64,000 nucleotides of DNA from Rhodopseudomonas palustris HaA2 (GTDB lineage Bacteria; Pseudomonadota; Alphaproteobacteria; Rhizobiales; Xanthobacteraceae), in contig NC_007778.1 in assembly GCF_000013365.1 (NCBI RefSeq), positions 2,852,001 to 2,916,000 of the forward strand, in the 5' to 3' direction. The notes below the pieces were generated by a model, which saw nothing but the letters and a program-made list of their open reading frames with translations, was not told the origin of the DNA and did no database searches. Below, one piece after another: positions 44,606 through 62,985 of the stretch. The first letter of the stretch is position 1, and the number at the start of each line of letters is the position of its first letter. The position numbers and the translations under genes were made by a program.

Positions 44606-47279
44606 TGCTCGCTCCGACGGATTTTTTCTCGACGTCGATGACGACGTCGACGGACTCCAGCACCTGCTGCCACAGTCCTTGCTTCGTCTTCCAGGCCTCT
44701 TCGGCCTCCTTGTCCAGCACGAAGCTCACGACGCGCTGATTGAATTGGTGTCCCTCGTGGGCTCGGTACGAACGCGTCGGAAGGACGGCGGCTTTCCAGT
44801 ACACTTCGGCCATCTGGCTATCGACGCCAACCGCCTCCATGAATATCCGGAAGCGATTCCAGTCACGGGCGGCCCCCGGCGCTCGCGTCCCAATGGCCGT
44901 CGCTGGCGCGATGTCGGCTCTCAGCCACCGTTGAATGTTGTACTGCTCATCGCCGACGGTCGCGTCGATCCGTTTCATGATCGCAAGGACGTGCCGCGCC
45001 TTTTCGGCTATCGTTCCCCCCGGTAGTCTGGTGCGGATCCTTTCGATCTCGCCATGATAGACGCAGAGCCCTGCTTGACTGGTGCGGGACGTCGCGAGTG
45101 CGAGCCGGAGCGGCTCGCGGATCGAAGCATCAAGGACGAGGATGCGGTCATCCTTCCTGATCTCCCGCGCGGGTGCCCGTTCGAATGGTCTCAATTCGCC
45201 CGGGGACTGTTTGAGGACTTCGCCGCCCGGGCGATAATCCAGCCGGATCCCGCTCTGCATCATGAGATGAACGACGTCACCGCGATACCTGCCGTCGGAT
45301 TGCGTAAAATCGACTCCTCTTTCCTTGACGAGCGGTGCGGCATGGAATTCTGCCTCCGCTTGATCTAGAGACTCGTCGGCCCCGCCGCGTCGCAGCGCCG
45401 TCGTCAAGGCTTTGGCTCTGACGGCGAACTGGGAGAATTCCGGAATAGTTTCGATCGCGGCCAATTCGGATGAGAGCAGGGAGCTTCCTGCAGCGTCGCC
45501 GAGGAGATAGACCGTACTGGGGACCTTGCGGGCGGTCAGCAAGGCGCGGATGGATTCCGGCGTCGGACCGATGACGATCAGCCTCTCCGGATCCTGACCT
45601 TCGAGATGATCGAGCAGACTGTGATGGTCGACAATGGCGCAGTTGCAATGGACCGCCCGATCGGAAGCCAGGTAGACCTCGCTGATGCGTCGGCCGGGCA
45701 GTGCGATCGAGGTCTTACCAGAATTGATATCGGCGGATGTGAGTAGTTCGGCGAGCTTTGCCGCGACCGGGGTATCCTCTTCCCAATTCGCGACTTTGCG
45801 TTCGATCTGCTGGACGACCGCGTCGATGGCTGGTGCGAACGTGGGCTGACGCAGGCCGACCGCGAGGAGGTCGCTGAGGGCCATCTTGGGACGGAAAAGC
45901 TTCTTGAGGGCATCGTCGAACTCTCCGACTTCGTCGTAGAGGACATCGGTGATGTCGCGAGCTTCGCGCATGCCGAGGGGAAGCGAGGCTGAGCGTCTGA
46001 CAAAAGCCAGGGCACGCTTGATCTGGTCCGCGTCGTCGTCAGCTCCATAATCGCGCAGCTTGCCGCCGATCGCCAGCAATTCCTGTCGAAGAGGAGCCAG
46101 GGCGGCATCCTTGATGTCCGCCTGGACGGAGAGCGGCGCAGTATCCCTCGGCGGCTCGGCCGCCGGCCCGCGCAGCGTCGGTTTCTCCAGAAACAATCCC
46201 AGTTGTTGCGCCCTGATCTTCGGACGCCGCTTCTCGGCATGCATGCGCAGAAGACTGAATGCGCGCCGATGGGTGAAGCTATCGTCCGTCAGGACGAATA
46301 GCGCCGGGCGCCGACCCTGGATCGCACCGAGAGCAGTCAACAAGACGCCCAGCTTCTTTTCCCAGGAGTTACGGATCTCGGATCGACCGGTGCTGGTCAG
46401 ATCGGCGACAACAAGATCGAGTCCCAAGTCCTTGATGCGTGGAGCTCCCAGATAGCGAGCGAGGCCTTCGGGCGCCGTCGCCGGTGGAAGACCGAACAGG
46501 GCGAACGGGGTTGAGTCCGGGTCACCCACAGCTCTCACATGCTCGGTCAGCCCGGCGTGCGGCTCTCCCATTGATGTGTAGTCCCGAACTCGGCGAAGCA
46601 CTTGCTCGGAGTCCGGAAGATAGGCCCCTTCACCCTTGGAGTTCGCAGGAGCGAAAACCGAAGTTGTCTCAAGCAAGGTCGGATTTCGTACGACGATCTC
46701 GCCAGACGCCCGAGCCCTGGGCTTCAGATCGCGAAGGCGCATCTCGATCATGCAGAGCGACATGTGCGCCAGGGTACGTTCCTGCCAGGAAGTGTCCGGA
46801 GCGTTGCAGACGGCCAGGGAGACGTCCGCGATGTCCTGCGGATTAACGAGGATCGACCGGGCCGCCTGCTTGGCTCCCTCGCGCCAGGGCCAATAGGCGA
46901 TGGTCGCGTGGGCGAGGCGGCCGGAAGACCGGGCTTCCCTGAGAAGCGCGCAGGTCGCCACGAACGCGCCGCCGGGGCGGGCCGGCCAAGAAAGCATCGC
47001 GCGGTCCCCGCCGTCCGCTATGGCATCCAACGCTGCATTCAGCAAAGGCCTGCCCGCGTCCATGGTGGCCCAACTGTCGGCGGCCGAGGTGGAGGCATAT
47101 CTGACGGTGGTTGGCTTGCAATGACCTGGTCTGGAGAGCTTCGGGTTTTCGCCTTGAGCGCGGGAGCTTTGCAGTAGCGAGCGGATCCGGTCGGCCTGCG
47201 CCTTGGATCTCTCCTGGCGAGAAAGCGGGTCGTTCTTGTCCCCGCGCTGGAAGCTGTCCGGCCGCTTTCTGCCCATCAT
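44598..47279 (-). CDS. Large DISARM-operon protein, DrmE-like (unconfirmed)
   Basis: 893-residue protein lodged between the methylase and drmA genes with overlaps on both sides, so it is surely part of the system. It is not the SNF2 helicase DrmD: no Walker A/B or SNF2 motif is present. Near residues 97-115 a sequence LSWPARPGGAFVATCALLRE looks like the position of a P-loop that lacks the GKS/T, and LDLVVADLTSTGRSE and ALFVLTDDS resemble core strands of a nucleotide-binding fold, so it may be a degenerate NTPase. Its size and position suggest DrmE, the uncharacterised protein of class 2 DISARM, but I cannot confirm family membership by eye. Confidence 0.5.
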   Translation of the reverse strand: MMGRKRPDSFQRGDKNDPLSRQERSKAQADRIRSLLQSSRAQGENPKLSRPGHCKPTTVRYASTSAADSWATMDAGRPLLNAALDAIADGGDRAMLSWPARPGGAFVATCALLREARSSGRLAHATIAYWPWREGAKQAARSILVNPQDIADVSLAVCNAPDTSWQERTLAHMSLCMIEMRLRDLKPRARASGEIVVRNPTLLETTSVFAPANSKGEGAYLPDSEQVLRRVRDYTSMGEPHAGLTEHVRAVGDPDSTPFALFGLPPATAPEGLARYLGAPRIKDLGLDLVVADLTSTGRSEIRNSWEKKLGVLLTALGAIQGRRPALFVLTDDSFTHRRAFSLLRMHAEKRRPKIRAQQLGLFLEKPTLRGPAAEPPRDTAPLSVQADIKDAALAPLRQELLAIGGKLRDYGADDDADQIKRALAFVRRSASLPLGMREARDITDVLYDEVGEFDDALKKLFRPKMALSDLLAVGLRQPTFAPAIDAVVQQIERKVANWEEDTPVAAKLAELLTSADINSGKTSIALPGRRISEVYLASDRAVHCNCAIVDHHSLLDHLEGQDPERLIVIGPTPESIRALLTARKVPSTVYLLGDAAGSSLLSSELAAIETIPEFSQFAVRAKALTTALRRGGADESLDQAEAEFHAAPLVKERGVDFTQSDGRYRGDVVHLMMQSGIRLDYRPGGEVLKQSPGELRPFERAPAREIRKDDRILVLDASIREPLRLALATSRTSQAGLCVYHGEIERIRTRLPGGTIAEKARHVLAIMKRIDATVGDEQYNIQRWLRADIAPATAIGTRAPGAARDWNRFRIFMEAVGVDSQMAEVYWKAAVLPTRSYRAHEGHQFNQRVVSFVLDKEAEEAWKTKQGLWQQVLESVDVVIDVEKKSVGASNG

Positions 47280-48967
47280 GCCGCTCTTTCCACGGTCTTT
47301 CGCTTACGGGAGGCCTCATAGGCAACCTCGACGGCCGTCTCGAAATCCTTGATCCGCGACATCGCGGTCCGCATGTCGCGCGGATCGGGCAGGGGCAAAT
47401 CCTTCAGGGCCGATATCGAAATGCTCGATGTCCCGCCGATGCACCGAAAGCGTTTGTCAACCGCTTTCGAGTTCAGCAGTTTGCACAGGAGCGACAGGTT
47501 CGAGCGTTCGTGCGGAATCAGAAGTATGGTGTGGTTCTCGGCGACGAAGCCCTTGTGACGCTTGACCACCTGTCGGGGAATCACGGCGGCGACTAGGCGC
47601 CGCGGTTGCCTGCTATTCGTTGTCCGCTGGAGAATGATCGCTGAACGTCGGATGATGCCCGGATTGTCCTTGTCGAAGGAGACGAAGTCGATGCCGGTGC
47701 CGGACTTGCTTCGGGGTTTGCATGGGTCTCCGGGCTTGATGTTTCTCGCCCAGATGAGAGGGAAGTCCGTTCCAAACTTTCGACCGCTCTGAAGGCGCTC
47801 TTTTTCGCGATTCCAGACAAAATACCCAGCTTTTGGCGTAACGCCGTAGTCCGACAAACGCGACCTGCAAGACCGCAGCGCTTCGTCGCTTCCGTCGGCG
47901 CGCTCCGGAAGAACCCAGGGAGCCCCTTGAGCAGATGACGCCGCGGTGATGGTTCCGATCTCCTGGAAGTGCCAATTGCGATCCACCCGACCCAGCTTGG
48001 GCACGAACGCCGGTAGGCAAGCAGACTGAGAGCGCATCCGGAACACCGATACGCATGCGTCTTGCTGGACGTCGTGAAACACGTCCTTGCGCTCCAGAAT
48101 GTCGATGCGGACCACTTCGGCCTTTGAGCGGATGTACTCACGCAACCTCTGAAACAGCGAGCCGGCCAAGAAGCTGGATGGCGTGACCGTGGCGACGAGA
48201 CCGCCAGGCTTCGCCATCCGGAAGGCAAGGTCGATGAAAAGGGCATATCGGTTGATGTGCCCACGCGCAGCGAACGCTAGCCAACTCTCTGGAAGCTGTG
48301 GCCCAAGGCCGAGCAACCGGCCGTACGGGGGGTTAACGAAGACTGCGTCGTAGAATGCGGTCTTGGCGATTTTCAGTGAATCGCCGACCTGAATGGAGCG
48401 TCGTGCAGCAGCACGCGTTTCGTTTAACCGGTCTCTGAGGAGTATTTCACCCAGCAGCGCCAGATGTTCGTCTATCTCGATTCCCGAGAGGCGCTTCTTG
48501 ATATCGTCCGTCTTGCACCCAAGCTCGGTCATGCGGCCGGCCAAGGTGGACACAAATGCGGCGCCGCCCGCTGCAGGGTCGATCACACGGGCAGTTGTCA
48601 GATCCAGCCCAGCGTTTTCGGCTCGCGCAAGCAGATGGCGGACTATCGCGGGAGGCGTAAAGAACGTTGCCATATCACGGCGCAAAGTCGCACTCATAAG
48701 CAGGGTGTAGAAGGTGCTCAGCCAGTAGTGACGCTGGTCGGCATCCACTTTTAGGAGTTCGTTCCGGAGGCCTGCAGTGAATTTCTGCTTTCGCGGCGCA
48801 TGATCGCCTCCGAGCAGAGAAACCGCGAGCGCGAGCCGCGTCCTTGGCTGCAAGCGCTCGACCGGAACTAGATTCGTTTCGATATTGGCGATGGCAGCGC
48901 GCATGGCGACACGGATCCGTTCCGTGTTCGCTTCGTCATGGACGAAACGTTTTACCTCGGCACTCAT
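47276..48967 (-). CDS. DISARM-associated N6-adenine DNA methyltransferase
   Basis: 563-residue class I methyltransferase. SAM-binding motif I reads DPAAGGAAF (about residues 127-135; normally DPACGSGxF, so the Cys and Ser are replaced), and the catalytic motif IV is NPPYGR (about 212), which specifies adenine N6 methylation. The C-terminal half carries a TaqI/Eco57I-type target-recognition region (KPGDPCKPRSKSG, then RHKGFVAENHTILLIPHER). In DISARM the methylase marks host DNA and spares it from attack. It is shorter than the PglX-like DrmMI usually found in class 1. Start at 48967 has GAGGGG upstream; an in-frame start at 49060 is unlikely. First gene of a five-gene overlapping operon. Confidence 0.85.
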   Translation of the reverse strand: MSAEVKRFVHDEANTERIRVAMRAAIANIETNLVPVERLQPRTRLALAVSLLGGDHAPRKQKFTAGLRNELLKVDADQRHYWLSTFYTLLMSATLRRDMATFFTPPAIVRHLLARAENAGLDLTTARVIDPAAGGAAFVSTLAGRMTELGCKTDDIKKRLSGIEIDEHLALLGEILLRDRLNETRAAARRSIQVGDSLKIAKTAFYDAVFVNPPYGRLLGLGPQLPESWLAFAARGHINRYALFIDLAFRMAKPGGLVATVTPSSFLAGSLFQRLREYIRSKAEVVRIDILERKDVFHDVQQDACVSVFRMRSQSACLPAFVPKLGRVDRNWHFQEIGTITAASSAQGAPWVLPERADGSDEALRSCRSRLSDYGVTPKAGYFVWNREKERLQSGRKFGTDFPLIWARNIKPGDPCKPRSKSGTGIDFVSFDKDNPGIIRRSAIILQRTTNSRQPRRLVAAVIPRQVVKRHKGFVAENHTILLIPHERSNLSLLCKLLNSKAVDKRFRCIGGTSSISISALKDLPLPDPRDMRTAMSRIKDFETAVEVAYEASRKRKTVERAA

Positions 48968-49058
48968 GACCCCTCGCCAACGCGTTACCCGCGCTCCTCT
49001 ATTTTGAGGACGCTCACTTGCCGAAAGTGATGCTGGGCAAGCTGCAGCTCCGGATTGC

Positions 49059-49087
49059 ATTGATTCAGTAGATCACGTCGGTGTCAA
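49059..49087 (-). promoter_or_regulatory. Candidate promoter for the DISARM operon
   Basis: On the minus strand TTGACA (49082-49087) is followed, after exactly 17 bases, by ATCAAT (49059-49064), about 95 bases upstream of the methylase ATG. The -35 is perfect and the -10 is weak, which would allow activation by a regulator. Confidence 0.35.
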
Positions 49088-49244
49088 TCAGCAGACCACA
49101 GCGGTGGGGAGTATTACCCTAGATGTCCTGCCGAACCTCTCATAATCCCCAGAAACTGCGAAGCATTGCGGATGCTACGTTTCGGGCCGACTTTGAAATG
49201 AGCATAGGCCATCATCGGGAGTGCCTTTCTGTGCGGTCGACATG

Positions 49245-49561
49245 CGGGCTTTGGAGATGTCAGACCTTCGGTAGGACGTCGCCCCGATCACCGTCGGGTC
49301 GAGCGCCGCCTCAATGCCGGCGGCGTCGAGCGCCTTCTTGACGACCATATGATGCAGGCCGCGCTGGCGGGCGATCGCGAACAACGAAACGAATTCGGCG
49401 TCGAAGCGATCAACCTCGGCCGCCATGACAACGACGGTCGGACAGCGGTTGATTGGGTTGACCACGGCGACGGTATTTAGGTGGCCGTGCTTGATGAGTG
49501 AGGCCACGACCCTAGAGGTAGTGGTGGAACGACGAGGAAATCGCCATCGTTGATCGTTTCA
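49245..49561 (-). pseudogene. Decayed 3' fragment of a second tniQ gene
   Basis: The minus strand reads VVASLIKHGHLNTVAVVNP, INRCPTVVVMAAEVDRFDAE and so on to GIEAALDPTVIGATSYRR. This aligns over about 90 residues with the C-terminus of the intact TniQ just upstream (VVYRLIEHGHL, INRCPQTVVMPADLQAF, GVEAVFDPATLGATIYRR). The fragment has no start region and nothing corresponding to the zinc-finger N-terminal domain. The two copies are clearly diverged, so this is not a recent tandem duplication but the remnant of a related, different Tn7-like element or an old duplication. Confidence 0.8.
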
Positions 49562-49577
49562 AAGTAATGCTGGGTCA

Positions 49578-51431
49578 TCAAGTAGCATTGAACGACTGAT
49601 CAGACACGCTGCGGCGGTAGATCGTCGCCCCGAGCGTGGCCGGATCGAACACCGCCTCGACGCCCGCGTCGTCCATCGCCTTCTTGGTCTTTCTGAAATG
49701 CTCCCCGCGCTCCTTCGCGAGTCCGAACAGTGTCACGTAGGCCCGCTGGAATGCCTGCAGGTCGGCGGGCATGACCACCGTCTGCGGGCACCGGTTAATC
49801 GGGTGGATGCGGCTGGTGCTCGGCAGGTGTCCATGCTCGATGAGCCTGTAGACGACCTGGTCGTTGACGCCGAGGAGCTTGGCGACATCGCGCGGTTTGA
49901 TGCCGCCGTGGTCGTCGCCCTGGACGAGCGGCCGCAGTTCGGCGACGTCGACGAGCAGCGCCAGGTAGCCGCGCGCGCCGGCGCTGCGGCCGGTCCAGGC
50001 GAGCTTCTTGTCGAGGACGAGCCGGACGATCTCGGCGGCCGAGCAGCAGGCGCGCTTGCCGGCGGCGGGAATGTCGAGCTGGTCGGGACCAGGACTGTCG
50101 ACCCTCACGGCGCCGTCAAGCAGCTGCTCCAGAAACCTGTCGAGGTCGGGGACGGCGTACTGATCGACGGCGCCGGCGGCGCGCCCGTCGAGGACCGGTT
50201 TGATGAGGTCGGACTTGACCAGGAGGTCGATCTGGCACCGCGGCGCGTTGATGTGCCTGCTGGCGGCCGGCCGGGACAGGGTGGTATGGCCCGCCAGAAG
50301 GGCTGGCGGGGCCGCCTGCACCGGAAACAGGACGTTGGCGTCTACCGACAGCCGGGAGGCCGGCGTCAGCGCTCCTGAGGCCTCTAGGATCTTCCGGAGA
50401 CGTTTCGGGTGTTGGCCGGTCTCGAGGCTGAGGCTGCGGATGGAATGCAGGGTCCTGGACGGTGTGGGGACCCCGAACACCACGTCGCCCGCGGCGAGCG
50501 GGAAATTGGCACGGATGTAGCTGCCGATCGCCTCCCGGACGGGGTCGTAGGCGGCGTCGGGCGCGGCGAACTCCAGCACCTGGTAGACGCGACCGAACAC
50601 GGCCTGCGGACCTTCGGTCCCGCTGCGGGTGTACGGATAGGTCTGTTGCAGCTCCCTGAGGAAGGCGTCGAGGGACTCGGTCCCGCCGCGCAGGATGTCA
50701 AAGCCGGCGGCGCCTGCGAGCCGCCATTCCTCGTCGGACAGGGTCTTGAGGCTCGGCGTGCGTCCGTGCAGCGAGACCGCGCCGACCAGCTCGCAGCAGT
50801 GGATGGCCACGTAGAGGTCCAACCTGTCGAGGAAGGGGATCGAGGCCCCGGTCTTGTCGAGACGCTCGATCAGGTAGGTCTCGAAGTCGGTTGGTGACCG
50901 CGCCGGCGAGACGGCGGCGAGCTGGCTGATGTTCGGCAGGACCGGCGCAATCAGATCCGCGAAGTCGTGCAGCCGTCCTGGCGTGAGATCGTCGGCCGCG
51001 ACGATCAGCGGCATGTGGTGATGCGGGCAGGTTTTGATGGCGGCGATCTGCCAAATCGCGCGTCCGTAGGCGGCCAGGCGAGGGCGGCGGCCGGTGGTGG
51101 AGGCCAGGTCTTGTGCGAGGCAAGCCGGGCACACTGCGACGTCCTTCCTCCTCAGCCAGCCGCGCTGCAGGCGCTCGCCTCGGTAGGCGTAGTCGTGCTT
51201 GTCCTTGTTGGTTTTGACGAAGGCGTGCTGCATCAGGTCGCCGGCGGCGAGGTCTGCTTTCCCTGCGATGATGGAGATGGCCTGGGCGCTTCCGTCGACG
51301 ATGGACTGGAACGTGGTTTCCCAGTCCAGGCAGAACTCGCGGGCGGGCAGTCCGTTGGCGGCGGCGAACCGGCTGACGTAGCTGGCCGGGGTCTCGCTAT
51401 CGCCCAGGGGGACGGTGATGCGCAGGACCAT
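49578..51431 (-). CDS. tniQ: TniQ/TnsD family target-selection protein
   Basis: 617-residue protein that in Tn7-like elements recognises the target site and recruits TnsC. The N-terminal TniQ domain is visible: PASYVSRFAAANGLPAREF (about residues 15-33), then a zinc finger with CPAC (101-104) and CPHH (135-138) embedded in VAVCPACLAQDLAS and AIKTCPHHHMPL. The C-terminal part holds helix-turn-helix-like segments (IKPRDVAKLLGVNDQVVYRLIEHGHL). The length is that of TnsD-type proteins that bind a fixed attachment site. Start at 51431 overlaps the tnsC stop (ATGA); the frame reads further upstream without similarity. Confidence 0.9.
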   Translation of the reverse strand: MVLRITVPLGDSETPASYVSRFAAANGLPAREFCLDWETTFQSIVDGSAQAISIIAGKADLAAGDLMQHAFVKTNKDKHDYAYRGERLQRGWLRRKDVAVCPACLAQDLASTTGRRPRLAAYGRAIWQIAAIKTCPHHHMPLIVAADDLTPGRLHDFADLIAPVLPNISQLAAVSPARSPTDFETYLIERLDKTGASIPFLDRLDLYVAIHCCELVGAVSLHGRTPSLKTLSDEEWRLAGAAGFDILRGGTESLDAFLRELQQTYPYTRSGTEGPQAVFGRVYQVLEFAAPDAAYDPVREAIGSYIRANFPLAAGDVVFGVPTPSRTLHSIRSLSLETGQHPKRLRKILEASGALTPASRLSVDANVLFPVQAAPPALLAGHTTLSRPAASRHINAPRCQIDLLVKSDLIKPVLDGRAAGAVDQYAVPDLDRFLEQLLDGAVRVDSPGPDQLDIPAAGKRACCSAAEIVRLVLDKKLAWTGRSAGARGYLALLVDVAELRPLVQGDDHGGIKPRDVAKLLGVNDQVVYRLIEHGHLPSTSRIHPINRCPQTVVMPADLQAFQRAYVTLFGLAKERGEHFRKTKKAMDDAGVEAVFDPATLGATIYRRSVSDQSFNAT

Positions 51432-52504
51432 CAGGACGGCCTCTTGTCCCGGCCGAGCTTGCCGCCGGCCTTCGCCGGAGCGGATTCCGGCTTCTGCTCT
51501 TCGGTCTTCGATCGGAGCAGGCTGGTGTCGACGGTCGACCACAGGTTGGCGACGAACGGGTTCTGGGTTGCCGGCTGCAGGGTGCGGGATCCGTAGACGA
51601 CGGCGAAGTCCTCGAGCGTGAGGGTGCCCTCGTTACGCAGGAGCGCGTTCTCGATGGCGTCGCCGACGATCTCGATCGACAGACCGAACTGATAGCTGGC
51701 GGCGTGGAAGAGACGCCCGATGAGGTCGACGTCGGCGTCGAGATCGAGCTTCAACCCGGACGTCTCGACGAGCTTTTTGACGGCGTCGTTGATGACCTCG
51801 CCGTCGTGGGCGACCGAGAGGTCGGCGAAAGCGATATACCTCAACCTCCGCCGGAGCTGGCGGTCGTGCGCGACGAACGGGACGAGATCCGGCATGCCCG
51901 AGAGGATGATGTGGACCGGCCAGTCCGCGGAGGTCATGAGATCCTTGAGGGTGTCCCGGATCTTCTGCATCTCCTCTTCGCCGGCCTGGTGCAGCACGTG
52001 TTGCAGGTCGTCGATGTGCAGGAACAGGATATTCTGCTCACGCATCTGGAGGTGGACGCGCCGCCAGGCGGCGTTCTCCCGCAGTTCTCGCTCCGTGTCG
52101 TAGTCGAACTGGTCGAGGATGCGCATGGCGAGTTGGCGCAGCGTGCAGGGGGAGGGCGCCCCGATACTGATCAGCGGGCACCACCCGGCGCCTCCGAAGT
52201 TCGGAAAGGCCGGGTGGTTTCGGAACGCCTCGCGGAGCGCTGTGGTCTTGCCGGCTCCGCTGGGGGCGACGAGCAGCATGCCGATGCCGTAGCGGCGGTT
52301 GTCGTGGCCGTGGGGCAGGTTGGCGTTGCGTCTGCGGGCCGCATTGTCGACCAGCATGTCGATGGTGCTGCCCAGGAGATCGTCGCGATCGCCGCGGATG
52401 TATTCGGATTTGATCGCTTCGATGATCGCCTCGCGGCGGCGCTGGTCCTTGGACCAGAGGGCGCGCAGATACGCGGCGGGATCGGCGTTGTCGGGCGTGA
52501 TCAT
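51431..52504 (-). CDS. tnsC: TnsC/TniB family AAA+ transposition regulator
   Basis: 357-residue AAA+ ATPase. Walker A GMLLVAPSGAGKTTAL (about residues 72-87) and Walker B NILFLHIDDLQHVL (about 156-169) are intact; sensor-like HIILSGMPDLVPF follows. The protein bridges the TniQ-bound target to the TnsAB transposase and controls target immunity. Start at 52504 (MITPDNADPAAYLRALW), six bases after the tnsB stop. The upstream open frame is Arg-rich antisense sequence and not part of the gene. Closer in sequence style to TniB than to classic TnsC. Confidence 0.9.
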   Translation of the reverse strand: MITPDNADPAAYLRALWSKDQRRREAIIEAIKSEYIRGDRDDLLGSTIDMLVDNAARRRNANLPHGHDNRRYGIGMLLVAPSGAGKTTALREAFRNHPAFPNFGGAGWCPLISIGAPSPCTLRQLAMRILDQFDYDTERELRENAAWRRVHLQMREQNILFLHIDDLQHVLHQAGEEEMQKIRDTLKDLMTSADWPVHIILSGMPDLVPFVAHDRQLRRRLRYIAFADLSVAHDGEVINDAVKKLVETSGLKLDLDADVDLIGRLFHAASYQFGLSIEIVGDAIENALLRNEGTLTLEDFAVVYGSRTLQPATQNPFVANLWSTVDTSLLRSKTEEQKPESAPAKAGGKLGRDKRPS

Positions 52505-52509
52505 GCCGG

Positions 52510-54804
52510 TCACTCCGTGTCGCGTTTGGTCCACGAGCGGACGGGCTTGGGTTTTGTGGGCGTCGGCGGCGTCTCGCGCGCGGCGCGCTTCGGCGGCTTG
52601 TAGGAGGGTTTCGCGGAGGCGGGCTGGGTGGGTCCTCCAGACGTCGGCGTCGAGCCGCGCTGCCGATCCTGCTCGTCGGGCGCGCCCGTGGCGGCCGTTC
52701 CGACCGGGATGGTGCCTGCGAACAGGCCGGTGGGACGCTGCGCCGGCACGGCGTTGTCGTCGGTCCACGCGATGCCGGCCAGGGTCCGCGCCTGGACGGC
52801 GTCGAGCATGTCCTGCGTGAGCGGCGAGTCGATGATGCCTCTGCGTCCTCGGGCCTCGCGGTCGACCTCGAGGGCGGCCGCGATGGCGTCGAGCACGATG
52901 GGTTCGGTCATCTGCGCTTCGATCTTGAACCGCCGCTGCAGGTCGGTGCGGGCGGCCATCCAGGTGTCGGCGTTGACGCCGCGCATCCAGGCCGGACCGG
53001 GCACGGTGGCCCACGAGACGTCGTCGAGCTGGAGCGAGATCCAGCCGAGGTTCTCGCGGTCGTATCGGGTCCTGACGGGCGCGTTCCGGATCTTCTGGAA
53101 CAGCGCGTGCTGCTCGGGCGACCTGTACCAGTTGCCGAGGACGAGGATGCCGCTGGCCTGCATGCGGGCCTCGCGTTCCACGCCGAGGGCGAGGCGGAGT
53201 TCATGGATGTCGGGGCAGCGCGGGACTCCGAACTCGAGGGAGACGTCGAGCCATTTCGAGCGCGGCGTCTGTCCTCCGAGGCCGGCGTGCGGCGTGTTGT
53301 GGTAGCCGTCGACGATGTAGCGGAGGATCACCTTGACCGCTTCGTCCACGGTGATGCACGCGCGCGCCTCGCCCTCGTACTGTTTGCGCATCTGGACCGG
53401 CATGGCGCGCCCGCAGAGGTTCGAGATCAGCTTCTGGTCGAGGGTGCGGTGGGAGCGTTCGATGCGTCCGCGCGCCGAGGGCGCGCTGGTCTGGGGGAAC
53501 AGGAAGGGGATGCGCAGGTCGGTGAGGGCGGCGACGACATCCTCGTTGTAGTTTTCGGATCCGGTGTCGAACACCATCAGCTCCGGCGTTCCGCGATACT
53601 CCCAGGGCGTTGTGGCGCCGAACGAGGAGGCGAGCGCGGTTTTGTCGGTGAAGATCATCCGCAGCGCCTGCAGGGTGCTGGCGGCATCGACCGTCTTGGA
53701 GATCCACAGGCCGACGTAGCAGCGCGTCGTGCAGCAGAGCGCGGCGGTGAGCCACATGCGGAGCGGCTTCATGGCGTTGCGGAGATCCTCGGGGAAGTGG
53801 TCCCAGAGGCCGATCGCGACGGCGATCATGTAGAGGTGGATTTTCCAGCCGTCGACCTCGACGCGCTGCAGCGGGCGCACGAGGTCCTGCACGCCGCCGC
53901 TGCACGGGCGGAAGAGGTTGACGGCTTCGTCGAGGCCCTCGCGTCCTGCGGCGGTCTCGATTGCGGTGAAGGAACCGATGACGTCGCGGAGCTTCTTCTC
54001 GCTCGGAATTTTCAGGTCCGGCAGATGCTTCCTGCGACGCTCGGCGTTCACCTTCCTGAATTCGATCCGCATCATCGTGTTGGTGGAGGCGATGCTGGGC
54101 TTCTCCTTCATCAGGAACGCTCGCGCGCACCTGAACAGGATGGCGGTCTCGTCGACGTTGAACCGCGGGATGAAGTTGCCGCTGTTGCAGCGGCCGTCCA
54201 TCAGGGTCATGGCGGACTCCTTGCTGGTGTCGGGCATCTTCTTGAGCCAGCGGACGAGGGTCGAGGGATGCGGCATCCGCCGGAGGGTGATGATTTCGCT
54301 GCCGGCCTGGGCGCCCTTCTTGGCCTTGGTTTCTTCGGCCTCCCTGCAGAGCGTGCTCTGGATGATTTCGAGCGCGTTGCGGATCGACGCCTCGGACATC
54401 GTGGCGAGGCCCTGCGCCTGCAGTTGGCAGAACCGCTCGATCAGCATCCGCTTCCAGGCGATGGTTTCGCGCTGTTTCTTCGGCAGATCGCGCATCCGGC
54501 GGGCGCCTGCGCGCAGCATTTTGCGCGACTGTTCGAGGGAATAGCCCTTGCGCTCGAACGTGAACGCGCCATCCCGTTCGAGGGCGTCGAGTTCGTCCCA
54601 TGTGATCGGCAACGTCAGCGGCTGGCCGTTGGGCGACGTCCTCGTGGTGTATTCGAGGATGCATCCACGCTCATTGGTCTCGATGCAGTTGAACTGCTCG
54701 CCGAGGAGGCAGAGGCGAGCGGCGTCGTCGAACGCCCAGCGGACCGGCCGCGCCGAACGCTGTGGCGTAGGCAGGACGAGCTTGGGACGGAGCGTCATGG
54801 CCAT
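52510..54804 (-). CDS. tnsB: TnsB/TniA family DDE transposase
   Basis: About 764-residue transposase with an rve-type catalytic core. The DDE triad can be placed: D near 317 (VEVDGWKIHLY), D near 413 (MVFDTGSENYNED) and E near 449 (GRIERSHRTL), with 35 residues between the last two, the canonical DD35E spacing. N-terminal helix-turn-helix DNA-binding regions precede it and a Mu-type C-terminal domain follows; the last 60 residues are Pro/Arg/Lys-rich and probably contact TnsC. Start is taken as the ATG at 54804 (AGG five bases upstream); GTG 54810 and ATG 54798 are alternatives. Follows tnsA with six bases or less between. Confidence 0.92.
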   Translation of the reverse strand: MAMTLRPKLVLPTPQRSARPVRWAFDDAARLCLLGEQFNCIETNERGCILEYTTRTSPNGQPLTLPITWDELDALERDGAFTFERKGYSLEQSRKMLRAGARRMRDLPKKQRETIAWKRMLIERFCQLQAQGLATMSEASIRNALEIIQSTLCREAEETKAKKGAQAGSEIITLRRMPHPSTLVRWLKKMPDTSKESAMTLMDGRCNSGNFIPRFNVDETAILFRCARAFLMKEKPSIASTNTMMRIEFRKVNAERRRKHLPDLKIPSEKKLRDVIGSFTAIETAAGREGLDEAVNLFRPCSGGVQDLVRPLQRVEVDGWKIHLYMIAVAIGLWDHFPEDLRNAMKPLRMWLTAALCCTTRCYVGLWISKTVDAASTLQALRMIFTDKTALASSFGATTPWEYRGTPELMVFDTGSENYNEDVVAALTDLRIPFLFPQTSAPSARGRIERSHRTLDQKLISNLCGRAMPVQMRKQYEGEARACITVDEAVKVILRYIVDGYHNTPHAGLGGQTPRSKWLDVSLEFGVPRCPDIHELRLALGVEREARMQASGILVLGNWYRSPEQHALFQKIRNAPVRTRYDRENLGWISLQLDDVSWATVPGPAWMRGVNADTWMAARTDLQRRFKIEAQMTEPIVLDAIAAALEVDREARGRRGIIDSPLTQDMLDAVQARTLAGIAWTDDNAVPAQRPTGLFAGTIPVGTAATGAPDEQDRQRGSTPTSGGPTQPASAKPSYKPPKRAARETPPTPTKPKPVRSWTKRDTE

Positions 54805-54810
54805 GCGCAC

Positions 54811-55560
54811 CTACCGGTTGATCGAGGAGGAGGGACGTTCGACGACGGCGTCGTGGTCGAGAGCGGTGTGCTCGACGAGGACGAGGCGGCGGTCCGCGAC
54901 GGCGCGGACGATCGCGTCGTAGCTCCAGCTGCCGATCCCGGCGGCCTGCATCAGGTGGCCGATGGTGGTGGGGCCGCGGAGCGCGTCGATGATGGGCTGG
55001 ATGGCCTCGTCGTCTGCCGGATCCGGTCGCTGCCGAGCGCGCCTGATGGCTGCCGCGTTGAAGCGGTCGACGTCGGTGAGATCGTTCTCGGTCAGCAGTT
55101 TGATCTCGTCGGCGAACTCCCGGGGTGTCTGCGCGGCGAGGAGTTCGACCTGGCGGTCGCTGTCGCGGCGGGCGACCTTGGCGGCGGGCTTTGCGAAGAC
55201 GGCGACGCGCCGGCCATCGGCGCAGGTTACGGCCAGGTCGAACGTGTGGTCGTGGACCTCGCCGTCGTCGTCGACGTATTCGATCGAAGGCGGCTGTTCG
55301 CGCACCTCGACGACGTCGGGGTGCGCGCTGTAGGCGAGCATCGCTTGGAATTCGAGGTGGGACTCGGCGTAGGTGATGTGGTCGTCGATGACGATGCCGG
55401 CCCGCGCGCTGCCTTTGCTGCGTAGCGCGATTTTCCGGCTCGCGCGGGTGTCGCGCGGCAGGCGGATCACGGTGGGGGACGGGAGCGGGTCCCTGATGCA
55501 GGGATCGGGCGCGAGGTATTGGTCGAGCGTGTACGGCTGCAAGGGGCTTTCTCCGGACAT
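54811..55560 (-). CDS. tnsA: TnsA family endonuclease
   Basis: 249-residue protein that cuts the 5' ends of the element so that transposition is cut-and-paste. The PD-(D/E)XK-type core is visible: ESHLEFQAMLAY (E near 70), HTFDLAVTC (D near 108) and VAVFAKPAAK (K near 124), with EVREQPPSIEYVDDDGE between, as in TnsA. The C-terminal half is helical (LLTENDLTDVDRFNAAAIRRAR), matching the TnsA DNA/TnsC-contact domain. Presence of TnsA separates this element from the Tn5053/Tn402-like elements, which lack it. First gene of the tnsABC-tniQ operon; ATG at 55560 (MSGESPLQPYTL) has GGAG-rich sequence upstream. Confidence 0.85.
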   Translation of the reverse strand: MSGESPLQPYTLDQYLAPDPCIRDPLPSPTVIRLPRDTRASRKIALRSKGSARAGIVIDDHITYAESHLEFQAMLAYSAHPDVVEVREQPPSIEYVDDDGEVHDHTFDLAVTCADGRRVAVFAKPAAKVARRDSDRQVELLAAQTPREFADEIKLLTENDLTDVDRFNAAAIRRARQRPDPADDEAIQPIIDALRGPTTIGHLMQAAGIGSWSYDAIVRAVADRRLVLVEHTALDHDAVVERPSSSINR

Positions 55561-55614
55561 GGCTCCGCCATCCACCGGAAAGGTGCCGGTGCTGGGGATA
55601 AGTCGAGATTTCGG

Positions 55615-55770
55615 AGGGGCGGCCGAGAGAACCTTGCACCACGGAGCCGAGCAGCTGTACGGTCCGTGTGTTGGTTGGTGCGGGGTTCTCTCGGTTTGTC
55701 CCTCCGGACGACTGGTGATCCGACTTCAACGAAGGGCGGTTCTGTTAGCGCAGGGCCGCTCTTTTCGTTT
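55615..55770 (+). ncRNA. Candidate structured RNA with terminator upstream of tnsA
   Basis: A long hairpin can be drawn: 55623-55633 (CCGAGAGAACC) pairs exactly with 55684-55694; inside it GCACC (55636-55640) pairs with GGTGC (55677-55681) and ACGG (55641-55644) with CCGT (55664-55667). After it come CCTCCGG and a second hairpin in which GGGCGG (55734-55739) can pair with CCGCTC (55755-55760), followed by TTTTCGTTT, the shape of a rho-independent terminator on the plus strand. The strand is inferred from that terminator. No promoter is evident, so this could also be DNA structure at a transposon end. Confidence 0.4.
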
Positions 55771-55852
55771 GAAGCCGTTCGGCTGTCAGTTGGTTGCGAG
55801 TTCTCTCCTTCGGCGAACTTGTGATTTCACCCTGACGATCAGCGTCGGGCGG
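55664..55852. repeat. Two degenerate tandem copies of a ~75-100 bp unit
   Basis: Unit 1 (about 55664-55740) and unit 2 (about 55778-55853) share the order TTGGTTG-(n)-GCGxGTTCTCTC, then T(C/T)CGGxxxACTxGTGAT, then a small hairpin whose sequence differs (CTTC-GAAG in unit 1, GACG-CGTC in unit 2), then GGGCGG. Conserved ends with a changed but still paired hairpin point to a selected structure. Could be TnsB binding sites at an element end or repeated RNA motifs. Confidence 0.5.
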
Positions 55853-55860
55853 TGCAAGAT

Positions 55861-56315
55861 GCCTCGCCGGGCGGGGAGTGCCCGGATTCGAGCGGTACTT
55901 TTGGCGCCCGCGAACTAACGGGAATCGTCGCGAGCGGGCTCGGCACAAGGCGTCGCAGCAACGGCGCTCCTCCGCCGAGCACGCCAAAAAGAGTGTTTTC
56001 GAGGACCTTCTAAGCCCTTCAGTTTCCCCACATTTCGAAAAATGCGGAGAACGAGTCGCTTTTCGCTTGACAGTGCATCCCGCAGATCCACAGCGGCTTT
56101 TGTTAGTCGAGAACGACTAGCAAGAAGTCACGGTGAGGCCGGGGAGTTGCGCCTGTAGCGAAGGGAGGACGGCGGAGTCAGGCGACTGGCTGGCCCGAGA
56201 ACGGGAGCAGGTAGTCGGCATCGATGTCGTTGAACATCTGGCGCTCCCGAGGGTCTGGCGTCGGCGCACGACGCGGAAGGTGGCGGGCTATATAGGATCC
56301 CGCCAGCATACGTCA
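55861..56315. other. Non-coding stretch between the repeat units and the regulator
   Basis: No gene is supported. It contains a TTGACA at about 56067 without a matching -10, and a short inverted repeat TAGTCG-AGAA-CGACTA (about 56105-56120). The AT-rich patch around 56030-56060 differs from its surroundings. A transposon boundary may lie here but none can be shown. Confidence 0.35.
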
Positions 56316-56402
56316 ATAGCAAAATAGCCAGATAGCCAGATAGCTGATTGGATTTGCCCGACTCGGGTGACGGCGGTAGCCTGATGTGAATAGCCAGCTA
56401 TT
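56316..56402 (+). promoter_or_regulatory. ATAGC iteron array, probable operator of the RHH regulator
   Basis: Four direct copies of ATAGC begin at 56316, 56324, 56332 and 56340, exactly 8 bp apart (two are full ATAGCCAG). A further inverted pair, AATAGC-CA-GCTATT, lies at 56389-56402, 14 bases before the ATG of the ribbon-helix-helix gene. Short direct repeats in 7-8 bp register are the typical binding site of ribbon-helix-helix repressors, so this is likely an autoregulatory operator. Confidence 0.6.
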
Positions 56403-56415
56403 CGGGGGACGGGAG

Positions 56416-56622
56416 ATGGCGAAGAAGGTGGGGTCGGCGACCGCCGGCATTGGCAGCCGGGACCGCAAGGACGGCCGCCGCCAGGTCCTGATGTACATGA
56501 AGCCAGAGATCGTGAAGGGCCTGAAGAAGGCCGCCTTGGACGAGGAGCGCAACGCCTACGAGATCGCCGAGGATGCGATCGTGGCGTATCTGAAGCGCCC
56601 ACGTCAGCAAAAGAACAGCTAA
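56416..56622 (+). CDS. Ribbon-helix-helix transcription regulator
   Basis: 68-residue basic protein: a flexible N-terminus (MAKKVGSATAGIGSRDRKDG), then RRQVLMYMKPEIVKGLKKAALDEERNAYEIAEDAIVAYLKR, which has the strand-helix-helix pattern of MetJ/Arc repressors. It should bind DNA as a dimer through the strand RQVLMYM. Start at 56416 chosen because GGGGGACGGGAG directly precedes it; an ATG at 56386 would add ten residues. Its promoter region holds the ATAGC array. It precedes the TerB/ATPase/helicase operon by 160 bases on the same strand and may regulate it; the link is inference. Confidence 0.75.
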   Translation: MAKKVGSATAGIGSRDRKDGRRQVLMYMKPEIVKGLKKAALDEERNAYEIAEDAIVAYLKRPRQQKNS

Positions 56623-56781
56623 GTTTTCGGGGCGCAAAGCACCTATCCCGCTCCGGGACTCGCCTTCTGCGCGGTGGAGCACGCCGGCAGGTAGCTACTC
56701 CCGGTTTGACTGTTGAATCATTCACGGCCAGAACTGCTGGTTGCGGAGGACGCGCGACGGCCGTCTGGGCAGGCGGGGAAC

Positions 56782-59190
56782 ATGGCGAAGAAGGACAGTT
56801 CATCGCTAGGATGCGGTGTTCTGGTGCTAGTCGGCCTGGTGATCTGGGCGATCAGCGCCGCCTACGAATTCGTCACAACGCATGCTTCTGCCGTCGTGGG
56901 TTTTGCAGCGATCGCCGGCGGCGTTCTGGTGATTGCTATGGCGGTCCGGAAATGGCGCGGGGGGCAGACCGACCCTGCCGCTAGAGCTTTGCAGCCCACC
57001 ATGACGGTCGAGATCAGGCCAGAAATCCGGATCGAAGGCTTGCGGCCTGGTTCTTCAAGTCTGCGTCCGGACGCGCGCTGGATCGGCGCAGGGGATACGA
57101 CTGAGGTCCGTGGCGCTAAGATCCGGGCTGGTCTGTTCTACCTCGGTAGTGCTGTGGCGCTGAGGGATGGTCGCTCGACGGACCAATACGTCGTCAATCC
57201 CAAGCTGCCGGTGGCGGCGCCGCCAGACGTGAGCGGTTCCTCGATGCCGTATTGGCCATCCTACGCGGACATCCCGCCGCGGGCACGGCGAGCGTACATC
57301 GACTGGCTGGCTGGCGGACGACGCGACCCTACCTACGGCGTAGGTTACGTTTTCCTGTTCTTCTATGGTCTTGAGCATCGACTGTTCATCGATCGGGACA
57401 GGGCATCGACGCCCGCGGTGGTCCAGGAGGTGGAAGAGCTCCTGTCGGTCTACGGCCATAGCGGATCGCTGCGCCGTTATGCGGCCGAATTTTTGAACTG
57501 CGCCCGCATCGCCGCGGGCATTCCCCTGGCGCTTCCCATACCGAAGCCGGAGCATGAAAATTCCTCGGAGATGAACGCTGCGGTTCGGCTACACCTCGGG
57601 AAAGTGCTGTCCCAGTCGAAGGCGGTCGGCTCAGAGGATGCATTGCTGTGGGTGCTGGCACTGCCTGATGTGTATCTGAGGACGCCGGCTGTCCGATGCT
57701 TCACCGAGTTCGTCCGACTTTGGAAAGTGTGGTTCGCGGCGAGGTACCCGAACGGCATCTCCGCCAAGCCGGCGGCCAACATTGTTATCCACTACAAGGC
57801 GGCGAGCGGCGCGTTCGAAGTACCGATTTCCGGACCTCATGAGCAACTTCCGGACCCGATCCAGTCTCCTCGATCCGGAGCCGAACTCAAAAAGTTGGTC
57901 GAGGAAGTCACCGCCGAACTCGAGCCGTTCAGCCGCTACGTCGGCCGCAAGCCCGACGAGCGCAACTCGATGCGCGCGGCGTTGCTGCTACCGAAGGAGC
58001 TTCAGACCGATCCGCAGGATGGCCTGGTCGCGAAGTTCGGCCACCGGATGGCGGAGATCATGGGCGAGCACAAGCGCGCCAGCACGAAGATGAGCAAGAT
58101 GTTGGCCATTGCCGGACTTGAGCTTCCTGTCGGCAAGATCACGCCTGGGATGGCGGACCAGTTGGGTGGGCTGCTGGACCAGGTCGACATCGCGATCGAG
58201 CCGGATCGTCGTTACGGGAGCGGCGTACCGCAGCTCGACGACCAGGTGATCGTCTTCAAGGCGCCGAAAGGCGGCCCCGTCGATCACCAAAGGCCGGCTT
58301 ATCGCGCTATGAAGGCCCAGATCGAGGTTGCGGTTCTGGCAGCGGCGGTCGACGGCGAGTCATCGCACGACGAACTGCAGCGGATCGTCGACGGCATTCG
58401 GGCTGAGAAAGACCTTGGCGGGATCGAACAGGCTCGGCTGATCGGATACGCCGTCACCGTCTTCAACAGCCCGCCCAAGCAGGCGCGGGTGATGCGGAAG
58501 TTGGCGGAGCACAGTCCCGCCGAGCGCGAGGCGATCGCGAGAGCGGCCCTGACGGTGGTCGGAGGCAACGAACACGTCGGGCCAGAAGAAGTGAAATTCC
58601 TCGAGCGGCTGCACAAGGCGTTGGGGTTGCCGAAGGAGCGGGTCTACAGCGAACTTCATCGGGCTGCGGCCACAGCGTCACCTTCGGACGAGCCGGTGGC
58701 GCTGACCGAAGAGAAACGGGTTGCCGGCATTCCCATTCCGCCCCAGGCGGAAGTGTCTTCGATCCCCGAGCCTCCGGCGCCGATCGCCGCCGAAACGTCT
58801 GGGGGTATCCAGATCGACGCGGAGAAGTTGGCCAGGACGCAGCGAGAAACGCAGGCGGTGGCCAAACTGCTCGCCGACATCTTCACCGACGAAGCCCCAG
58901 AGGCAGAGCCTGTGTCACAGGCCTCTGCGACTGGGCGGTCGGCTTTCGAAGGGCTGGATACCGCCCATGCCGAGCTCGTCGAGATGCTAGAGATCAAGGG
59001 GACGGTGCCGCGCGCCGAGTTCGACCAGCGCGCGAAAGAGATGAAGCTTCTGCCCGAGGGGGCCATCGAGCGCATCAACGAGTGGTCCTTCGACCTGTTC
59101 GATGAAGCGCTGATCGAGGTTGGCCATGACGTTACGATAGCGCCGGACCTGCGCGAGCGGTTGGCCGAATTGAGAGAGAATGCGGAATGA
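56782..59190 (+). CDS. TerB-domain protein (Shango SngA-like)
   Basis: 802-residue protein. The N-terminus has two membrane segments (about residues 8-27, LGCGVLVLVGLVIWAISAAY, and 33-52, VVGFAAIAGGVLVIAMAV). A TerB-N domain follows (about 95-280; WIGAGDTTEVRGAKIRAGLFYLG is its start), then a TerB domain at about 520-640 (AVDGESSHDELQRIVDGI) and a TerB-C region to the end. This TerB-N/TerB/TerB-C layout beside an ATPase and a helicase fits SngA of the Shango anti-phage system. It may sense the invader or tether the complex at the membrane. Start at 56782 preferred (CGGGGA upstream); an ATG at 56713 is possible. Overlaps the next gene by four bases. Confidence 0.8.
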   Translation: MAKKDSSSLGCGVLVLVGLVIWAISAAYEFVTTHASAVVGFAAIAGGVLVIAMAVRKWRGGQTDPAARALQPTMTVEIRPEIRIEGLRPGSSSLRPDARWIGAGDTTEVRGAKIRAGLFYLGSAVALRDGRSTDQYVVNPKLPVAAPPDVSGSSMPYWPSYADIPPRARRAYIDWLAGGRRDPTYGVGYVFLFFYGLEHRLFIDRDRASTPAVVQEVEELLSVYGHSGSLRRYAAEFLNCARIAAGIPLALPIPKPEHENSSEMNAAVRLHLGKVLSQSKAVGSEDALLWVLALPDVYLRTPAVRCFTEFVRLWKVWFAARYPNGISAKPAANIVIHYKAASGAFEVPISGPHEQLPDPIQSPRSGAELKKLVEEVTAELEPFSRYVGRKPDERNSMRAALLLPKELQTDPQDGLVAKFGHRMAEIMGEHKRASTKMSKMLAIAGLELPVGKITPGMADQLGGLLDQVDIAIEPDRRYGSGVPQLDDQVIVFKAPKGGPVDHQRPAYRAMKAQIEVAVLAAAVDGESSHDELQRIVDGIRAEKDLGGIEQARLIGYAVTVFNSPPKQARVMRKLAEHSPAEREAIARAALTVVGGNEHVGPEEVKFLERLHKALGLPKERVYSELHRAAATASPSDEPVALTEEKRVAGIPIPPQAEVSSIPEPPAPIAAETSGGIQIDAEKLARTQRETQAVAKLLADIFTDEAPEAEPVSQASATGRSAFEGLDTAHAELVEMLEIKGTVPRAEFDQRAKEMKLLPEGAIERINEWSFDLFDEALIEVGHDVTIAPDLRERLAELRENAE

Positions 59191-60518
59191 CGAGCACCAC
59201 GAAGAAGATCAAGCCCAAGGAGCGGGACACGATCATTCAGGCGCTATCCGCCGGTGTCGTGCCGAGGCTCGGGTTGCCGTACATCCAGGTCGGGCGCGCC
59301 GCCGAGATCGCCGCGCTGCTGCGGGACGTCGATCGTATCGGCGACGGCGGGGCCTGCGTACGCTTCGTGATTGGCGAGTACGGCGCCGGCAAAACCTTCT
59401 TCGCCAATCTGATCCGGCTGATCGCACTTGAACGGAAGTGCGTCACGATCCATGCGGATCTGGCGCCTGACCGCCGCATCCACGCGACCGGTGGCCAGGC
59501 GCGCGCGCTGTATTCGGAGGCTGTCCGAAACATGGCGACCCGGACGAAGCCCGAGGGAGGCGCGCTGGCCGGCGTCGTGGAGCGCCTTGTCACCGATTCC
59601 GTGAAGGAGGCGGCGGAGCGCAGCATCCCGGTCGAGACCGTGATCGACCAGAAGCTGGCGCCGATCCAGGAGTTCGTCGGCGGCTACGACTTCGCGGTCG
59701 TGCTGAAGGCGTACTGGAAGGGAAGCGAGGAGGGCGATGAGGAGCTGAAAGCGGCGGCGCTGCGCTGGCTCCGCGGAGAGTTTTCCACCAAAACGGAGGC
59801 GCGCCAAGCGCTTGGGGTTCGCACCATCATCGACGACGGCGACATCTACGACAGCCTGAAGTCTCTGGCTTGTCTGACCCGCATCGCTGGCTACGCCGGA
59901 CTGGTGGTGATGTTCGATGAGATGGTCAATCTCTACAAGCTTCAGAGTTCGCAGGCGCGCAACCAAAACTTTGAGGAGATCCTCCGGATCGTGAACGACG
60001 CGCTCCAGGGCAACACGTCGGGCATCGGCTTCGTGATGTGCGGGACCCCGGAATTCCTGATGGATACGCGGCGGGGTCTATACAGCTACGAAGCCCTCCA
60101 GTCCCGTCTGGCCGAGAACCGCTTCGCCACCGGCGGTCTCGTGGACTACAGCGGCCCGGTCCTCCGGCTTCAGAATCTGACGCCGGAGGACATGATGGTC
60201 CTGCTGACCAACATCCGCGCGGTCTTCGCCGGCGGCGATCCGGAGAGATTCCTGGTGCCGGACGAGGCGCTGCACGCCTTCATGGATCACTGCAACAAGC
60301 GCATCGGAGAAGCCTACTTTCGGGCGCCCCGGACGACCGTGAAGGCGTTCGTGCAGATGTTGTCGGTGCTGGAGCAGAACCCGACCGCGAAGTGGCAGGA
60401 TCTCCTGGGGCAGGTCGAGGTCGCCCCGGACGCTCCTGATACCCAGCCGACCACGGAAGGCGAGACGTCCAACTCGGGCGAGGAGGGTGATGAGCTCACC
60501 AAGCTTCGCCTCCCTTGA
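59187..60518 (+). CDS. P-loop ATPase of the BrxD/DUF2791 family (Shango SngB-like)
   Basis: 443-residue ATPase. Walker A is FVIGEYGAGKTFFANL (about residues 63-78) and Walker B is GLVVMFDEMVNLY (about 238-250); GIGFVMCGTPEFLMD supplies a sensor-like strand. The family is shared with BrxD of BREX systems and with Shango. ATG overlaps the end of the TerB gene (ATGA) and its 3' end overlaps the helicase start by 29 bases, so the three proteins are translationally coupled and probably form one complex. Confidence 0.85.
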   Translation: MTSTTKKIKPKERDTIIQALSAGVVPRLGLPYIQVGRAAEIAALLRDVDRIGDGGACVRFVIGEYGAGKTFFANLIRLIALERKCVTIHADLAPDRRIHATGGQARALYSEAVRNMATRTKPEGGALAGVVERLVTDSVKEAAERSIPVETVIDQKLAPIQEFVGGYDFAVVLKAYWKGSEEGDEELKAAALRWLRGEFSTKTEARQALGVRTIIDDGDIYDSLKSLACLTRIAGYAGLVVMFDEMVNLYKLQSSQARNQNFEEILRIVNDALQGNTSGIGFVMCGTPEFLMDTRRGLYSYEALQSRLAENRFATGGLVDYSGPVLRLQNLTPEDMMVLLTNIRAVFAGGDPERFLVPDEALHAFMDHCNKRIGEAYFRAPRTTVKAFVQMLSVLEQNPTAKWQDLLGQVEVAPDAPDTQPTTEGETSNSGEEGDELTKLRLP

Positions 60519-62745: not shown

Positions 62746-62863
62746 GCACCGCCGCCTCGATGCGGACGAACCATTCTGCTTGTTTTATTTGCGATCTACG
62801 TTTTGGCGTACGGCTTATTCTTGCGAGCCGGTCTTTTGACTAGCCTTCAAGTCTTCTGAAAGA

Positions 62864-62889
62864 ATTGGCCCGCCGTGCGGCGGGCCAAT
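62864..62889. terminator. Strong bidirectional hairpin terminator
   Basis: A perfect 12-bp stem, ATTGGCCCGCCG (62864-62875) and CGGCGGGCCAAT (62878-62889), closes over TG. It lies between the converging helicase and nrdJ genes and could end transcripts from both; a short T-rich tract (TTCTTTC) follows on the minus strand. Confidence 0.75.
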
Positions 62890-62902
62890 ATTGCTGCGAT
62901 TA

Positions 62903-62932
62903 CTGCGGGCAAATTATCTGCGGGCAGATTGT
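62903..62932. repeat. Two adjacent 15-bp direct repeats
   Basis: CTGCGGGCAAATTAT (62903-62917) is followed directly by CTGCGGGCAGATTGT (62918-62932), 13 of 15 identical. Located between the terminator hairpin and nrdJ. Function unknown; possibly a protein-binding site at an element end. Confidence 0.5.
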
Positions 62933-62985
62933 GGTTCCGGCCTCAAATGCAGTCTTTTGGGGTGAGCGACATTAGCTTAATTCGC

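Follow-up and report, generated by a model that had tools for sequence, protein, structure and literature searches.

A Tn7-like transposon with DISARM-type and Shango genes, probably attached to the 3' end of nrdJ, in Rhodopseudomonas palustris HaA2

The 64,000-nucleotide stretch of Rhodopseudomonas palustris HaA2 analysed here (contig NC_007778.1, positions 2,852,001 to 2,916,000; hereafter the window, with coordinates counted from its first base) holds a tnsA-tnsB-tnsC-tniQ transposition operon between genes of two anti-phage systems, DISARM and Shango. Comparison with related genomes indicates that all of these belong to a Tn7-like transposon of a lineage using the 3' end of nrdJ as its attachment site, and that this transposon was inserted in the right end of an older element, a reading to which we assign a probability of roughly 0.8. 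A first-pass annotation of this DNA had proposed that an element with one end beyond Shango near nrdJ would carry both systems, and this is borne out by ends at 36645 and 62945 with an AATGC duplication (Table 1).

Boundaries and empty site of the element

The element is flanked on both sides by exact copies of the 5-bp sequence AATGC, a duplication of the length that characterizes Tn7-like insertions. The nrdJ stop codon is 40 bp from the element's right end. Around it, an array of CACCCC-type repeats is split: the three copies of CACCCCAAA in the 64 kb lie at 36588(+), 36630(-) and 62956(-), the array's first repeat standing at nrdJ and its second and third 26 kb off, and the two sets fit together, in register, into a single right-end array. 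In the relatives G118 and G003 (G numbers denote compared genomes) and, behind another insertion, in G265, the repeats form one unbroken array; right ends of this type are present at nrdJ in G003 and G118, starting with TGT 11-13 bases behind its stop. Against G118, the window's right flank matches at 22 of 27 bases as far as the cut and at 8 of 22 past it, and the left flank at 2 of 21 before the cut and at 22 of 28 after it. Joined, with the duplicated bases counted once, the flanks score 77 (G118), 77 (G265) and 75 (G003), the best shuffles reaching 26, 30 and 24 and the single flanks 30-36 (right) and 53-57 (left). The duplication and the rebuilt array therefore identify 36645-62945 as an insertion, and the right end of an older Tn7-like element as its empty site. 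As judged from these comparisons, it is one delimited insertion enclosing the DISARM-type genes and Shango. The first-pass annotation had also considered ends between tnsA and an RHH gene and between tniQ and the methylase gene, which would leave both systems outside; the comparison with an empty site that it suggested instead places the ends so that both are enclosed.

The ends of the element start with TGA (right) and TGT (left). Within one mismatch, AATYTGCCCGC has nine copies in the window against 3.58 expected, two of them in the right end and one in the left, and a gapped local alignment of the ends including their inner sites is matched by 3 of 500 shuffles. A right end at 62971 with a TTAGC duplication was considered and dropped, the CACCCC repeats being the older element's right end split in two.

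The window repeats a stacking pattern seen in G265, where GTCGC precedes the right end and follows the left end, and where beyond the left end one finds what is left of a CACCCC-type right end; G118, of the same genus, has this right end intact. By this comparison, G265 and G118 provide an independent example of one element inside another's right end. For the window's older element, a search for the left-end repeat of the G118/G003 form (exact pattern ACCYCATAA) gave no left end, this pattern being absent from 28-63.1 kb. The CACCCC-type element of G118 (L114 104-2100; L131) has ends that pair at nrdJ with the duplication CACGA and a TniQ only ~24% identical to that of the window; distant TniQ types may thus share the nrdJ target.

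Table 1. Features of the element and its surroundings (window coordinates)
Feature	Position	Strand	Evidence or remark
Whole inserted element	36645..62945		26,301 bp; bounded by 5-bp duplication, and flanks when joined give an array that is unbroken in relatives
Target-site duplication AATGC, left copy	36640..36644	+	
Target-site duplication AATGC, right copy	62946..62950	+	
Left end	36645..36760	+	begins TGTGAACCAC
Candidate transposase site AATTTGCCCTC in left end	36745-36755		putative assignment
Right end	62864..62945	-	begins TGAGGCCGGAACC on minus strand
Two candidate transposase sites in right end	62905-62915, 62920-62930		putative assignment
Hairpin in right end	62864-62889		
Older element's right end, first repeat	62946..62971	-	outside new element; cut off by insertion
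Older element's right end, second and third repeats	36588..36644	-	outside new element
drmC	37282..38106	-	PLD domain
drmB	38103..40334	-	
drmA	40331..44605	-	helicase
893-amino-acid (aa) protein	44598..47279	-	of no family
DNA methylase of DISARM-type operon	47276..49060	-	adenine-type
Truncated C-terminus of second TniQ	49214..49525	-	leftover between tniQ and DISARM
tniQ, 617 aa	49578-51431	-	PF06527; candidate target selector
tnsC/tniB ATPase, 357 aa	51431-52504	-	PF05621, PF13401
tnsB transposase, 766 aa	52510-54810	-	PADLOC TnsB 2.3e-14; PDB 9y7b Tn6677 TnsB 4e-14
tnsA endonuclease, 254 aa	54811-55575	-	PF08722, 27.8 bits (cut-off 26.5)
68-aa open frame	56416..56622	+	RHH gene of first-pass annotation
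sngA	56713..59190	+	TerB-type; 2.5e-91
sngB	59187..60518	+	BrxC/D-type ATPase; 5.9e-176
sngC	60487..62745	+	helicase; 9.3e-248
nrdJ, 3' part	62986..64000	-	stop end at 62986; likely attachment gene
AIPR/AbiU-like gene	30450-32168		common to G009; in hotspot, outside element
Mrr-type nuclease gene	35227-36438		behind older right end, outside element

nrdJ as the likely attachment gene

The gene beside the right end is one that we take, following the first-pass annotation, to be nrdJ (class II ribonucleotide reductase), a name supported by its conserved 3' end in relatives. All 16 genomes of the genus, counting that of the window, contain nrdJ DNA; in 13 relatives the sequence behind its stop differs from that of the window and mostly also from one relative to the next. 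Genome G009 has 29862-32907, 33006-34234 and a repeat at 35124-35219 in common with the window and matches it again from 62992, indicating that the DISARM-tns-Shango block is missing there.

TniQ relatives were found in 25 of 341 genomes of the family (E <=1e-20) and 13 of 397 of the order (E <=1e-40), 37 genomes in total as the window's own (G000) counts in both sets. The 36 others were examined for nrdJ in two batches, with matches in 18/18 and 17/18, G167 being without a match; tniQ and nrdJ lie on one contig in 16 genomes and on different contigs in 20. In 12 of the 16 same-contig genomes (G000, G165, G187, G200, G203, G221, G230, G238, G249, G267, G449 and G708; the tniQ matches partly partial or split, as in G200, G221 and G267), tniQ is found 3' of nrdJ on the same strand at a distance of 11-79 kb, and relatives share the tnsA-tnsB-tniQ order and its orientation towards nrdJ. 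A scan of nrdJ loci, in which the best 80 of 596 had no tns match at E 1e-10 in flanks of up to 10 kb, says little because linked tniQ genes lie 11-79 kb away. The 3' end of nrdJ is thus likely to be the attachment site of the element's lineage.

We searched 24 further genomes for ends, a right one behind nrdJ and a left one behind tniQ, with a common 5-bp duplication, first with right-end starts picked by eye and then with all TG starts 5-70 bases behind the stop. Paired ends were obtained in 11 (G230, G265, G203, G249, G085, G165, G184, G118, G689, G672 and G449), spanning four families (f1, f11, f35 and f41); in six of them (G265, G085, G184, G118, G689 and G672) the ends are on different contigs. 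In the relatives, 11-35 bases separate the nrdJ stop from the start of the right end, compared with 40 in the window. As a control, 10 of 110 mismatched pairings had the five bases, and in these at most 13 of the 30 terminal bases agreed; the true pairs have 18-27 of 30 alike in nine cases and 11-12 in G203 and G249. The left end lies 187-295 bp behind tniQ in 9 of the 11 pairs, at ~1.1 kb in G672 and at 2.3 kb in G230. The first-pass annotation had placed DISARM on the tniQ side, which holds, and had called this the usual cargo side, which does not: with the left end usually close behind tniQ, the tniQ side is not where this lineage usually keeps its cargo. In the window, Shango occupies the usual cargo place and DISARM an unusual one.

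The window's relatives carry other defence genes between nrdJ and tnsA with the same tnsA-tnsB-tniQ order; different cargo in other strains is what the first-pass annotation had suggested looking for. Selected frames from this interval, compared with PADLOC models, include a CBASS-type phospholipase in G230, DISARM-type genes in G165 (in an element with the duplication TCCAG) and, in genomes without paired ends, QatABCD, BrxL, PglZ, PglX and BrxC (G238) and OLD/Iet-like proteins (G003). On a plasmid of Methylobacterium radiotolerans, tnsA-tnsB-ATPase-tniQ come after CBASS genes, and the features listed include no nrdJ. If their weak end matches hold, G203 (L126, L120) and G249 (L127, L122) contain elements of ~80 kb with the duplications TTGCT and AAGAC, respectively.

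Several observations weigh against the main reading, a Tn7-like element of an nrdJ-attached lineage. Thirteen of the 24 genomes gave no pair, some of them searched over a short stretch only (G187, G267, G003, G013, G602, G496, G443, G575, G708, G654, G200, G221 and G238, the last with no convincing left end at 9 of 30 bases), and the pairs of G203 and G249 fall within the control range, so that their terminal bases do not separate them from chance. The linkage of tniQ to nrdJ fails in 4 of the 16 same-contig genomes (G004, G052, G195 and G280), and the nrdJ-attached TniQs are not one clade (three changes on the TniQ tree, 131 of 500 shuffles being as low). DISARM sits behind tniQ, where most relatives have their left end. 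The window's two ends show little resemblance (14 of the first 30 bases agree, a value reached by 5% of shuffles, and 15 of 40), and the right end starts with TGA; blind searches, one for TGT..ACA ends flanked by a 5-bp duplication and one for inverted 20-mers in pairs, gave no convincing pair. Finally, the CACCCC motif was chosen by eye and its count tested afterwards (three copies against 0.24 expected, reached by 0 of 100 shuffles).

Two relatives in the window's genus, G004 (L116) and G001 (L117), have a TniQ inside the same tree that is not beside nrdJ; the G004 gene is unlinked on the nrdJ contig and the G001 gene lies on another contig. Their placement suggests a change of target.

Single insertion or fusion

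The DNA between tniQ and the DISARM-type genes still encodes the C-terminus of a second TniQ, which shares 59% identity with the C-terminus of the G230 protein and 51% with that of the window's intact TniQ; like the element's ends, it had escaped the first-pass annotation. Together with the weakly matching ends, this leaves room for a fusion of two nrdJ elements by deletion, an alternative that we regard as tentative. One element would have brought Shango and the intact tnsABC-tniQ operon and the second, G230-like, DISARM and the left end; a deletion would then have removed the material between them, sparing the C-terminus of the second TniQ. A fixed insertion distance from nrdJ could have given both elements the same 5-bp duplication, and the resulting unit would still be delimited, although the operon might not recognise its left end. 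The unusual side of DISARM fits such a history, as do open frames behind tniQ in G230 and G238. However, the left end has no special likeness to the end of any relative, searches at tniQ and tnsA gave no remnants of inner ends, and a single insertion takes fewer events. Whether it arose by single insertion or by fusion, the unit in the window encloses both systems.

That the element comprises only Shango and the operon, with its left end just behind tniQ, and that DISARM entered the hotspot independently is very improbable: the relatives' short tniQ-to-left-end distances, the lower G+C content of DISARM (about 0.60-0.63 against about 0.65-0.68 for the operon) and the same DISARM-type operon on Rhizobium johnstonii pRL10, with no tns gene listed nearby, would suit it, but DISARM lies within the bounds set by the duplication and the empty site, searches near tniQ gave no left end, and a homologous DISARM-type operon is cargo of the nrdJ element of G165. 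A placement of DISARM outside the element, drawn from the relatives' layout, was dropped for the first of these reasons.

Transposition genes and cargo

As the first-pass annotation had stated, the operon (49578-55575) is intact; it consists of four open frames in order on the minus strand, with Pfam, PADLOC or PDB matches. The machinery is of a known kind. Its TnsA matches that of Tn7 weakly (E 0.084); TnsB, with no Pfam match, is the only match of its kind in the 5.33-Mb one-contig genome, and no named relative of it was found among 57 stretches from a genome-contig scan. TnsB D320, D415 and E451 are invariant across relatives (11 sequences), as are TnsA E71, E75, D113 and K129 (10 sequences) and TniQ C101, C104, C135 and H138 (13 sequences). 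These are presumably the DDE, nuclease and zinc-ligand residues that the first-pass annotation had noted, an assignment to which the weak match to Tn7 TnsA contributes.

On the tniQ side, the window has the drmA, drmB and drmC genes by which DISARM is recognised, and with its methylase shares DrmA, DrmB, DrmC and a methylase with known DISARM. It differs by the 893-aa protein, for which no PADLOC, Pfam or NCBIfam model matched, those of DrmD and DrmE included. The best PADLOC model for the methylase is MTase_II rather than DrmM (among 25 of 36 families listed). Class 1 DISARM has DrmD with DrmMI and class 2 has DrmE with DrmMII; the operon in the window fits neither gene set. All five of its proteins have a homologue in the G165 element (48-63% identical), and homologues of the 893-aa protein, 47-48% identical, occupy the same operon place in G165 and on pRL10; this protein may be a new DISARM subunit. 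On the tnsA side, where the first-pass annotation had recognised a Shango-like operon, SngA, SngB and SngC were all matched, the set shared with known Shango and sufficient for its assignment. The 68-aa frame at 56416-56622 has no Pfam match.

Comparison with known systems and proposed mechanism

In passages of PMC2918618, Tn7 is described as inserting ~20 bp behind the glmS stop, with a 5-bp duplication, after TnsD has bound the 3' coding end of the gene. The window's element shares with this TnsD pathway the genes tnsA, tnsB and tnsC plus a TniQ/TnsD-type protein, and an insertion shortly behind the stop of a conserved gene in one orientation with a 5-bp duplication (PMC2918618, in part). 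It differs in its target (nrdJ rather than glmS), in its weakly matching TGA/TGT ends and in that relatives' cargo lies on the nrdJ/tnsA side; no tnsE was noticed in the window, although no search for it was made. Tn7-like elements with anti-phage cargo, including many defence systems and elements inside or next to one another, are described in parts of PMC8649781, and the window has the same combination of core tns genes and anti-phage cargo; the main text of that paper names no nrdJ, DISARM or Shango. The window's TniQ also resembles the long TniQ proteins that, in portions of the PMC10293859 survey of TniQ/TnsD selectors, are expected to pick a target directly; nrdJ, ribonucleotide and ribonucleoside are absent from the main text of that survey. 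A literature search returned no paper joining Tn7-like elements with nrdJ or ribonucleoside-diphosphate reductase, nor one joining Tn7, ribonucleotide reductase, attachment site and TniQ. Attachment of Tn7-like elements to nrdJ thus appears to be unreported in the literature searched, and while Tn7-like elements with defence cargo are well known, an unreported attachment site and an unusual cargo layout are apparently added here.

From the position, orientation and duplication observed by comparison, we infer how TniQ binding and transposition activity might proceed. In the way that TnsD binds glmS, TniQ would bind nrdJ at its conserved 3' coding end and recruit TnsC and then TnsA/TnsB bound to the repeats at both ends; these would insert the element with its right end towards nrdJ, leaving the gene unharmed. 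Successive insertions at one spot would stack and, with deletions, build a changing defence island, and the present block, with its second TniQ C-terminus, may stem from a fusion of two such elements. More broadly, we think it reasonably probable that nrdJ is a dedicated site of a broad Tn7-like lineage in Hyphomicrobiales whose TniQ reads its 3' end, that elements with differing ends stack there and assemble interchangeable defence islands (DISARM, Shango, CBASS-type, BREX, Qat), and that the window holds two such elements or cargoes merged, with two systems on opposite sides of the transposition genes. In place of a raw defence island there would thereby be a delimited mobile unit whose ends, target and history can be described, and the 3' end of nrdJ would serve as a handle for finding such islands in Hyphomicrobiales. 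One route of island growth would be the landing of new elements behind the same gene, even inside a previous end. Target switching by TniQ becomes testable because G001 and G004 sit elsewhere yet in the same TniQ tree.

Surrounding interval

From the sequence comparisons, the DNA that runs from nrdJ to an isomerase gene (29959-30306) is a hotspot. No Rfam match was found anywhere in the window. An interspersed repeat of ~500 bp at 29245-29755 occurs in many copies both in G000 and in the other genomes of the genus, at 73-92% identity among the matches listed; no long shared frame was in view, overlapping frames have no Pfam match and the repeat has no Rfam match. A palindromic repeat of ~95 bp occurs at 35120-35220 and at about 30327-30400, and copies of the one at 35.1 kb recur in the nrdJ hotspot of relatives.

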